From: a virus
IMG/VR virus record: IMGVR_UViG_3300017752_000168
Span: 1 to 23,602 of that record
Reading direction: 5' to 3' (one strand)
DNA: 23,602 nt
Shown: piece by piece, positions 1,525 through 16,350 of the stretch
How the letters are laid out: every line of letters begins with the position of its first letter
How positions within the stretch are numbered: position 1 is the first letter of the stretch
The notes under the pieces: generated by a model
What the model saw: only the letters and a program-made list of their open reading frames with translations
Told to the model about the DNA's origin: nothing
The model's database searches: none
Made by a program: the position numbers and the translations under genes

Positions 1525-1992
1525 ATGGGTGAATTACTTATGTTATTTATTACGGGCGGTGGTAGCACTGCTATGGGGGCGATTCTTAAAGGCGTATTCG
1601 GATATGTCTTTGAAGCAAAACAAAATAAGCACGATCTTGAAATGGCGAGAGAGAGCCGTGCGTCTGATAATTTCCTTCGACTACAAGCTGAAATCGCTAA
1701 AGGAGGTACTGGTGAGTTTGTTTCTTTTACTCGTCGTATTCTTGCTGTTATCGGGGTGTCTACGCTCTGTAGTTGTATCGTCCTCTGCACCATCTATCCC
1801 CAAGCAGAAATCGTTACCTTTACAAACGCAGACGGAGAAGGTGTCAACGAGTTCCTCTTCGGACTCATCAGTTTTCAAGCTCACCAAACACCGATCACCA
1901 TCTCTTCTGGACACATCAGCCTTATGGGATGTACGGTAATATTGCCTTGTATCTTAGGCTTTTACTTTGGTCCAAGTGGTCGAAGAGGTTGA
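1525..1992 (+). CDS. Putative holin-like membrane protein
   Basis: The gene encodes 155 residues. An N-terminal Gly-rich hydrophobic or amphipathic helix (about 4-27) precedes a charged helical linker (28-60). Two clear membrane helices lie at about 72-91 and 129-149, and the protein ends GFYFGPSGRRG. Size and layout resemble the three-segment holin-like proteins of marine phages and gene transfer agents (PF11351-like layout; similarity is by architecture, not checked). A holin would open the inner membrane to release or activate the lytic enzyme. ATG 1525 has AAGGAG at 1509-1514, spaced 10 bases. A GTG at 1520 in another frame (139-residue frame to 1939) sits closer to that site and could compete, but this frame has the family-like C-terminus. 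The lipoprotein candidate at 1712-1939 lies wholly inside it. Confidence 0.6.
   Translation: MGELLMLFITGGGSTAMGAILKGVFGYVFEAKQNKHDLEMARESRASDNFLRLQAEIAKGGTGEFVSFTRRILAVIGVSTLCSCIVLCTIYPQAEIVTFTNADGEGVNEFLFGLISFQAHQTPITISSGHISLMGCTVILPCILGFYFGPSGRRG
1699..1706 (+). promoter_or_regulatory. Internal ribosome binding site AAAGGAGG
   Basis: AAAGGAGG is nearly a full complement of the 16S 3' end and lies five bases before a GTG at 1712. It is inside the holin-like gene, where it has no use except to start a second, out-of-frame product. It is the main reason for calling the embedded lipoprotein gene. Confidence 0.55.
1712..1939 (+). CDS. Embedded Rz1-like lipoprotein (outer-membrane spanin candidate)
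   Basis: The frame encodes 75 residues, in the +1 frame relative to the holin-like gene and nested entirely within it. From GTG 1712 it opens with a hydrophobic stretch of Leu, Val and Phe (residues 3-13) ending in the lipobox L13-S14-G15-C16, cleavable by signal peptidase II. The predicted mature chain is a Ser-, Pro- and Lys-containing hydrophilic tail (SAPSIPKQKSLPLQTQTEKV and on to ALWDVR). A short lipoprotein overlapping another lysis gene out of frame is the hallmark of Rz1-type o-spanins, which link to an inner-membrane partner and disrupt the outer membrane at lysis. The ribosome binding site is excellent. Against it, the n-region lacks Lys or Arg (the upstream in-frame codons supply them but no good start), and the host gene is holin-like rather than an obvious i-spanin. 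Function is inferred. Confidence 0.5.
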   Translation: MSLFLLLVVFLLLSGCLRSVVVSSSAPSIPKQKSLPLQTQTEKVSTSSSSDSSVFKLTKHRSPSLLDTSALWDVR

Positions 1993-2164: not shown

Positions 2165-3223
2165 ATGGCAAATGGAAATACATCCCCATCACGTGTAGGT
2201 CTTATTGAAGGCGGTTCCGACAACGATGCTTTGTTTCTCAAGAAGTTTTCTGGAGAGATTTTGCAAACCTTTGACGAGTCTAACGTATTCAAACCTCTAC
2301 ACACAATCAGAACAATCGAAAGCGGTAAGTCTGCACAGTTCCCTGTAACTGGCATTGCTTCAGCTAACTACCACACTCCCGGCGAGAACATTGCTGACGG
2401 AGGTAACAGTTACTTGAGCGATATTGCTAAGACTGAAAAGATCATCACCATCGATAAGATGCTTGTTGCTTCTACTTTCTTGTCTAACATCGACGACGTA
2501 AAGAACCACTACGACATCCGCAGCGTCTACGCTAACGAGTTGGGTAAGGCTCTTGCTAAACGTTTCGATATTGCTTTAGCTAAAGTATTCTGTGCTGCTG
2601 CTCGTGATTCCGCTAACTTGACTCAAGTCGGAACTTCAGGTGGACAGCTTGACGTAGCTAACAACGACTTCTCAGCTCCTGATACTCCGGGTACTGTTGC
2701 TGCTACTACTGGTGCTGACCTCGTAGCTGCTTTCTTTACTGCTGCTCAGAAGCTTGACGAGAATGACGTTCCTAGTGACGGTCGTTTCTGCGTTCTTCGC
2801 CCACAAGAGTATTACAAATTAGTAACAGGTGCAGACAGCTCAAACAGCTTCAGCCTTACTTCTGCTATTAACTCTGACATTGGAGGCCAAGGAAGTTTAG
2901 CTTCTGGCTCTATTCCTCAGATCGCTGGTATCAGCATCTTGAAATCCAACCACATCCCATCAACTGATTTATCAGCTGTTTCTACTGGAGACGGATCGTC
3001 TGCTAATGATGTTTTCGGTGGCAGTGGTGTAGGATACAACGGAGACTTCCGTAACAGCTTGGGAATTGTTTCCCACTCTGCTGCTGTAGGAACCGTTAAG
3101 TTGCTCGACTTGGCTACTGAGTCTGAATATCAGATTGAGCGTCAAGGTACATTGTTCGTTGCTAAGTACGCAATGGGTCACGGAGTTCTCCGTCCTGAGT
3201 GTGCTATCGAACTTGTAGCGTAA
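2165..3223 (+). CDS. Major capsid protein (T7 gp10A-like)
   Basis: The gene encodes 352 residues, close to the 345 of T7 gp10A. The N-terminal part with FLKKFSGEILQTFDESNVF, then SGKSAQFPVTG and HTPGENI, followed by EKIITIDKMLVA and AKRFDIALAK, is the T7-like HK97-fold capsid pattern. The protein forms the icosahedral shell. ATG 2165 has AGGAG at 2150-2154, spaced 10 bases. The gene lies between a sigma70-like promoter and a hairpin terminator, so it can form its own transcription unit, as expected for the most abundant protein. Codon use is richer in C-ending codons (AAC, GAC, TTC) than in the tail genes downstream, fitting high expression. No gp10B-like frameshift extension is apparent. Confidence 0.96.
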   Translation: MANGNTSPSRVGLIEGGSDNDALFLKKFSGEILQTFDESNVFKPLHTIRTIESGKSAQFPVTGIASANYHTPGENIADGGNSYLSDIAKTEKIITIDKMLVASTFLSNIDDVKNHYDIRSVYANELGKALAKRFDIALAKVFCAAARDSANLTQVGTSGGQLDVANNDFSAPDTPGTVAATTGADLVAAFFTAAQKLDENDVPSDGRFCVLRPQEYYKLVTGADSSNSFSLTSAINSDIGGQGSLASGSIPQIAGISILKSNHIPSTDLSAVSTGDGSSANDVFGGSGVGYNGDFRNSLGIVSHSAAVGTVKLLDLATESEYQIERQGTLFVAKYAMGHGVLRPECAIELVA

Positions 3224-16098: not shown

Positions 16099-16350
16099 AT
16101 GATTGACTCCCTTCCTAGTCTTCTTAACACCGTCCTTGTAGTCACTCTTGGCGTGATCGGGTGGATTATAAAACGTATGATAGAACGCTTAGACATTGGA
16201 GATAAACGACTTACAAAGATAGAAGTAGAACTGGCAGCACAACGAGAACGAGACGCAGCCGTTGAAAATAGAATAGGTAAAGTTGAGACTGCTATCCAAG
16301 AGATGCACAACAAACTAGACCGCATGATGGAAATATTAGTAAGGAAATAA
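16099..16350 (+). CDS. Small membrane-anchored coiled-coil protein
   Basis: The gene encodes 83 residues. A single hydrophobic helix (about 7-25, LLNTVLVVTLGVIGWIIKRM) is followed by a highly charged heptad coiled coil (about 28-80). It starts three bases after the fibre stop. In T7 the genes after gp17 are the holin 17.5 and the spanin 18.5, so this could be a holin accessory or an inner-membrane spanin, the latter fitting a C-terminal periplasmic coiled coil. Equally it may be a structural or unknown membrane protein. I do not assign a function. An antisense frame over it (16077-16424) is a shadow. Confidence 0.8.
   Translation: MIDSLPSLLNTVLVVTLGVIGWIIKRMIERLDIGDKRLTKIEVELAAQRERDAAVENRIGKVETAIQEMHNKLDRMMEILVRK

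Follow-up and report, generated by a model that had tools for sequence, protein, structure and literature searches.

Judged from its sequence, a 155-codon gene in a marine phage DNA harbours a genuine second gene in its +1 frame, which encodes a predicted lipoprotein of about 90 residues. It is likely that the product of this lipoprotein gene is an o-spanin, and its partner would most likely be the 107-aa protein encoded just upstream. The window, that is the whole stretch of 23,602 nucleotides that was analysed, is a 23.6 kb IMG/VR virus record of a T7-like podovirus, which also encodes a tail tubular protein and a T7-type terminase.

The embedded gene and its neighbourhood

The interval between the scaffold and capsid genes of the window holds the 107-aa gene (1200-1523), followed by the 155-aa gene (1525-1992). 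The features of this region are:

356-1126, scaffold-like gene
1200-1523, + strand, 107-aa protein whose N-terminal TM is followed by a coiled-coil-like C-terminal part, candidate i-spanin, directly upstream of the outer gene
1525-1992, + strand, outer (host) gene for a 155-aa membrane protein, conserved family of 280 loci in 21 clusters
1658-1939, + strand, candidate o-spanin (lipoprotein) gene embedded in the +1 frame, 93 aa from GTG 1658, open in 78/78 relatives
1718-1759, + strand, hydrophobic h-region and lipobox LSGC, with the lipid Cys codon at 1757-1759, then LRS
1904-1930, + strand, C-terminal motif LLDTSALWD of the lipoprotein, overlying host codons 127-135
2165-3223, capsid gene, Gp10A-like (E 5e-68)

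An earlier note on this DNA had described AAAGGAGG, five bases, a GTG, a hydrophobic stretch running to LSGC and a 59-residue tail, all out of frame within the outer gene. We confirmed this in the window sequence, where AAAGGAGG at 1699-1706 is followed by TACTG and by the GTG at 1712. From there the +1 frame reads VSLFLLLVVFLLLSGC plus 59 residues, and the stop ends at 1939. As a whole, the frame is uninterrupted between 1520 and its stop codon at 1937-1939, and LFLLLVVFLLLSGC lies within it. Judged by pattern, the short lipoprotein has a type II signal with the lipobox LSGC, and its mature tail of 60 residues is Ser/Pro-rich with the conserved LLDTSALWD end. Standard annotation would miss such a gene. 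Few phage genes are overlooked as often as those for o-spanins: of the 528 pairs surveyed in SpaninDB, 196 had an unannotated o-spanin (PMC6139136).

An intrinsic-terminator-like hairpin (CCCCTAGCG...CGCTAGGGGTTTTTT) was seen at 1150-1197, just 5' of the coiled-coil gene, and a similar hairpin was found in 39/70 relatives in a crude scan.

Conservation of the second frame in close relatives

Two IMG/VR scans gave relatives of the 155-aa protein with 83-100% identity (132 hits, 78 distinct sequences), and all 78 have the full 155 codons without gaps. The earlier note had named stop codons in the +1 frame or a lost Cys among relatives as refuting its proposal. Neither was found: none of the 78 relatives had a stop between the upstream start/stop overlap and the terminal one at 1937-1939, and the lipid Cys was kept in 78/78. 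The lipobox was conserved, in its strict form in 77/78 (LSGC in 77, LLGC in one); the ribosome binding site at 1699, which the note had expected to be kept as well, was not. The residues around the Cys read CLRS, CLHS or CPRS in 78/78 with no Asp at +2, and the C-terminus was LLDTSALWD in 77/78. The +2 frame had stops in 78/78 relatives over codons 1-36 and again over codons 37-62, and in 54/78 over codons 63-137.

The reduced synonymous change that the note had predicted was observed as a strong local constraint at codons 65-81, which cover the signal and lipobox, and at codons 127-135. The third-position entropy of the outer codons was 0.10-0.11 over 65-81 and 0.00 over 127-135, and about 0.70-0.75 in the non-overlapping ends of the outer gene (1-36 and 139-154). 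When genes of the same loci were compared, the lowest 17-codon window had an entropy of 0.11 in the outer gene, versus 0.28 in the capsid, 0.48 in the tail tubular and 0.92 in the upstream gene (72 loci for the last).

Codon evolution was then simulated in 1200 runs at three rates. Each run followed the tree, began with the window sequence and constrained the outer amino acids, but assumed no second gene. In none of the 1200 runs was the +1 frame stop-free over codons 63-137; at least 6 of the 78 leaves carried stops there and the means were 49-62, versus 0 observed. The runs also gave more +1 amino-acid variation than observed at 63-81 and 127-137. The test is conservative because the control codons vary more in the real sequences than at any of the rates, the fastest included. 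At the two rates that came closest to the observed control variation, the real +1 amino acids were better conserved than the simulated ones at 37-62, 63-81 and 127-137. An OLGenie-like dNN/dNS of 0.42 was obtained for the +1 frame over codons 37-138 and was not relied on, because a control segment outside the overlap came out much the same (0.45).

The embedded gene in distant relatives

A search baited with the coiled-coil gene that lies upstream uncovered outer-protein relatives with 46-64% identity, and a profile scan added more. The +1 frame was surveyed in 280 loci forming 21 clusters. In all 21 cluster representatives the +1 frame had a lipobox-type open reading frame with a start upstream of the Cys, the Cys itself within host codons 72-87, and no fewer than 45 codons after it. 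When synonymous codons were reshuffled, 0.27 clusters with a +1 lipoprotein were expected versus the 21 observed; the clusters share descent and are thus not 21 independent trials, but the synonymous sites between them are far diverged. Most of the distant tails end in an [ST].P[LI]W-like motif, which is weaker evidence than the synonymous constraint because conserved outer residues may dictate part of it. The predicted embedded arrangement is kept across divergence to about 46% identity. With no stops, a kept Cys, the constraint and 21 divergent clusters alike, the central proposal of the earlier note, an Rz1-like lipoprotein lying out of frame inside a membrane-protein gene, withstood the refuting conditions set for it. 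The two reading frames in 21 clusters also provide a deep natural data set on the mutual constraint of overlapping genes.

Some distant loci (L353, L355-L357 and similar) indicate that the family spans quite different phages, and a small membrane protein of 49-52 aa encoded nearby could be a holin there.

The start site of the embedded gene

Two further features bear on the start:

1647-1655, + strand, GA-rich, Shine-Dalgarno-like site for the internal start, GAGAGAGAG in the window and GGGAGG in the distant homologue L222 and others
1699-1714, + strand, AAAGGAGG and GTG, possible lineage-specific secondary start

GTG 1712 was rejected as the start for all members, being unconserved: the codon was GTG in 31/78 relatives and GGG, GCG or CTG in the others, and AAAGGAGG in its exact form was likewise not conserved among the 78. 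In the region 1699-1714, AAAGGAGG was combined with the GTG in 31/78 and with a shifted ATG in 12/78, and 31/78 had no ATG or GTG. An ATG or GTG at 1658 or 1664 was present in 68 of 83 sequences compared, and most of the remaining ones had an ATG or GTG at 1709 or 1712. In the cluster representatives, the codon aligned with window position 1664 was ATG in 16/21. The codons around the 1647-1655 site showed little synonymous variation.

Several distant homologues (L222, L285, L286, L294, L300 and others) have +1 stops at codons 38-40, which exclude a long product, and an ATG aligned with 1664 behind a GGGAGG-like or GA-rich site. The stops lie just upstream of this ATG and therefore force an internal start there. 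The L222 product is classical and reads MSSHLNFKNSLTMVKVVCLLGLLGGC, then a Pro/Ser-rich tail and LLNSRPLW.

The start codon is therefore lineage-dependent, and the window has GTG or CTG and no ATG. Its options are GTG 1658 (93 aa), CTG 1664 (aligned with the ATG of the relatives) and GTG 1712 (75 aa), and the best standard start would be GTG 1658. GTG 1712 with AAAGGAGG is probably not the true start, because this pair is lineage-specific and the homologues start at the ATG aligned with 1664; the earlier proposal of a conserved ribosome binding site in front of GTG 1712 was thus not upheld. The weak point conceded with that proposal, a missing basic n-region, is removed as well. Two or three Lys/Arg precede the hydrophobic core in 78/78 and belong to the n-region only with a start at 1658 or 1664, so that a lipoprotein starting at GTG 1712 would lack it. 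A start at 1658 or 1664 supplies the n-region IISFDYKLKSLKE (basic n-region, MRLIISFDYKLKSLKEVL).

A full-length +1 product from the GTG/ATG at 1520 was rejected, since the +1 amino acids of codons 1-36 are not conserved and stops interrupt the frame there in distant clusters. We also noted that the +1 frame 5' of the lipoprotein start (1525-1632) is stop-free in 78/78 relatives, with a simulated chance P of about 0.002-0.007.

The outer membrane protein

By hydrophobicity, the small outer protein has two clear membrane segments (residues 72-90 and 131-149), both in its second half and separated by a loop of roughly 35 residues, and one weaker segment near the N-terminus (3-21). Structure models had mean pLDDT values of 37 and 54; these low-confidence models show a helix, a long loop and a helix in the second half, and searching with them gave no useful fold match. 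Neither Pfam nor PHROGs contained a match or any relative of the family, and none was found among about 50,000 phage records. A tblastn search against cultured phages found no homologue of the outer protein or of the lipoprotein, and no relative was found in the bacterial genomes searched. In a profile scan, the outer protein was encoded in over 500 IMG/VR stretches; the phage family with the embedded lipoprotein was seen here in metagenomes only and is marine. The host codon Leu5 of the outer gene is invariant.

From its topology, the product is a 2-3 TM membrane protein and possibly a holin. The holin-like label given to the gene by the earlier note agrees with topology and hydrophobicity and found no backing in family, profile or fold matches. 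Homology to the 3TM holin-like family of pelagiphages found no support, as hhalign gave a probability under 1% and no profile-profile similarity.

The candidate partner and the proposed lysis function

The 107-aa protein has one TM by hydropathy, and the same gene lies directly upstream in 72/72 close relatives where it is complete. Some of the distant clusters have the coiled-coil gene at a position that does not adjoin the outer gene. Weak distant homologues occur in pelagiphages, one of them two genes from a peptidase M15 gene. The TM half of the 107-aa gene is constant and its C-terminal half is swapped between two unrelated types, with the embedded lipoprotein unchanged. A second candidate i-spanin is encoded elsewhere in the window:

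16099-16350, + strand, 83-aa TM and coiled-coil protein

By eye only, this protein resembles the TM/coiled-coil proteins of 74-76 aa encoded beside the outer gene in the distant loci L250 and L354.

In the proposed mechanism, the lipoprotein would be exported and lipidated at the Cys and, given that Asp is missing at +2, sorted to the outer membrane, where it would act as an o-spanin. Its C-terminus would meet a TM/coiled-coil partner in the inner membrane, most likely the 1200-1523 product, and after the wall is cut the complex would fuse the inner and outer membranes, as Rz/Rz1 does. Both the lysis function and the lysis cassette are inferred. The finding provides these phages with an outer-membrane lysis candidate that had been missing; no other convincing lipoprotein open reading frame was found in two relatives of nearly full length (39-42 kb).

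A real lipoprotein gene might instead encode a product of another kind, such as a superinfection-exclusion, a regulatory or a bacteriocin-release-type lysis lipoprotein, which we regard as unlikely. In its favour, no significant match to any spanin family was obtained (the best PHROG hits were Rz-like spanins with E values of 0.02-0.3, which is chance level), and the lysis cassette is incomplete, as no endolysin was found in five relatives, including the 39-42 kb pair, with PF01510, phrog_7 and PF08291. Periplasmic Cys residues are also absent from both partners, namely from the mature lipoprotein (in the window and in 72/78 relatives) and from the 107-aa protein. Such a Cys is common in spanin pairs and not strictly defining: 507 of 528 two-component spanins have at least one, and about 4% of pairs lack any (PMC6139136). 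Against a non-spanin product, the size, the Ser/Pro-rich tail and the conserved C-terminus fit Rz1, and a TM/coiled-coil gene adjoins. The scaffold-capsid interval also carries a different embedded lipoprotein in a related phage and, in Chosvirus KM23C739, a TM/coiled-coil gene together with a small lipoprotein-like gene.

The o-spanin reading also bears on the outer protein. In lambda, the embedded o-spanin is encoded in the +1 frame of the i-spanin gene, and an i-spanin has a single TM at its N-terminus and a coiled coil in the periplasm. That the 155-aa protein is itself an unusual i-spanin, and the pair an ordinary embedded Rz/Rz1, seems improbable. Embedded o-spanins elsewhere do sit in the i-spanin gene, and other lineages of the family have a further small membrane protein as a possible holin. 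The outer protein, however, has its two strong TM segments with the intervening loop in the second half and lacks the coiled-coil i-spanin form, so that the lambda architecture of an o-spanin gene wholly within an i-spanin gene is not seen here, and a separate TM/coiled-coil gene lies next door. An o-spanin-like gene can reside in a gene that is not recognisable as an i-spanin gene. We suggest tentatively, as a serious possibility, that this marine phage family encodes its outer-membrane lysis lipoprotein inside a holin gene and not inside an i-spanin gene. If so, one mRNA segment would give both the inner-membrane-opening and the outer-membrane-opening protein, and with a holin as the outer product a single DNA segment would couple the two steps of lysis in timing and dose.

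A constraint on the RNA, either a secondary structure or a regulatory site, with the open frame as a by-product, is very improbable. A 14-pair helix of 1642-1655 with 1720-1737 was predicted and is mostly paired in the 78 sequences, yet no fold was clearly more stable than shuffles (z -1.3 to +1.55) and no compensatory pair was seen, the changes being rare, one-sided or pair-breaking. An RNA constraint also leaves unexplained the 90 codons without stops, the Cys in 78/78 and the 127-135 block, and clusters with different RNA sequences carry the same lipoprotein. Chance, by which the hydrophobic outer codons (xTx in TM segments, favouring F, L, S and C in the +1 frame) would yield a functionless hydrophobic second frame, is refuted by the reshuffled clusters (0.27 expected, 21 observed) and by the simulations, none of 1200 being stop-free over codons 63-137.

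Comparison with known arrangements

Like Rz1 of lambda, the candidate is a small lipoprotein with a lipobox and a Pro/Ser-rich tail, and its gene starts internally and lies entirely within another gene, in the +1 frame. Unlike lambda Rz, the outer gene encodes a multi-TM protein that is not recognisable as an i-spanin; no sequence similarity was found, and the lambda pair has periplasmic Cys residues. Overlapped or separated spanins (P2, T4 PseT.3/PseT.2) likewise have a lipoprotein and a TM/coiled-coil protein as separate genes, whereas the lipoprotein gene here is embedded in a third gene adjoining the presumed i-spanin gene. SpaninDB distinguishes embedded, overlapped and separated two-component spanins, embedded meaning inside the i-spanin gene (Kongari et al. 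2018, PMC6139136). The earlier note held an Rz1-like gene in a holin-like gene to be undescribed, and our literature search, incomplete in coverage, indeed found no o-spanin inside a holin gene.

The 3TM holin-like proteins of pelagiphages (phrog_2524; some homologues are annotated DUF3154) are also small and multi-TM, and in Stopavirus HTVC011P, Fussvirus S30C28 and Chosvirus KM23C739 their gene occupies the position that the outer gene has here, between scaffold and capsid. This shared position is no more than suggestive for the holin identity of the outer gene. The 3TM family shows no profile-profile similarity to the outer protein, and a simple scan found no +1 lipoprotein in it.

The gene BAQ94255.1 of Ayaqvirus S45C18 and its relatives also have a +1-frame lipoprotein (LMSGC) between the scaffold and capsid genes, but the outer protein is unrelated in sequence and the lipoprotein tail is different. 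In the Ayaqvirus S45C18 locus (L082, 2827-3141), the +1 frame of the 104-aa gene reads MKRN.MLS...LLMSGCTPTLRPTKLPYFLEKA.. and is unannotated in the record. This Ayaqvirus-type embedded lipoprotein is conserved in IMG/VR relatives (L150-L180).
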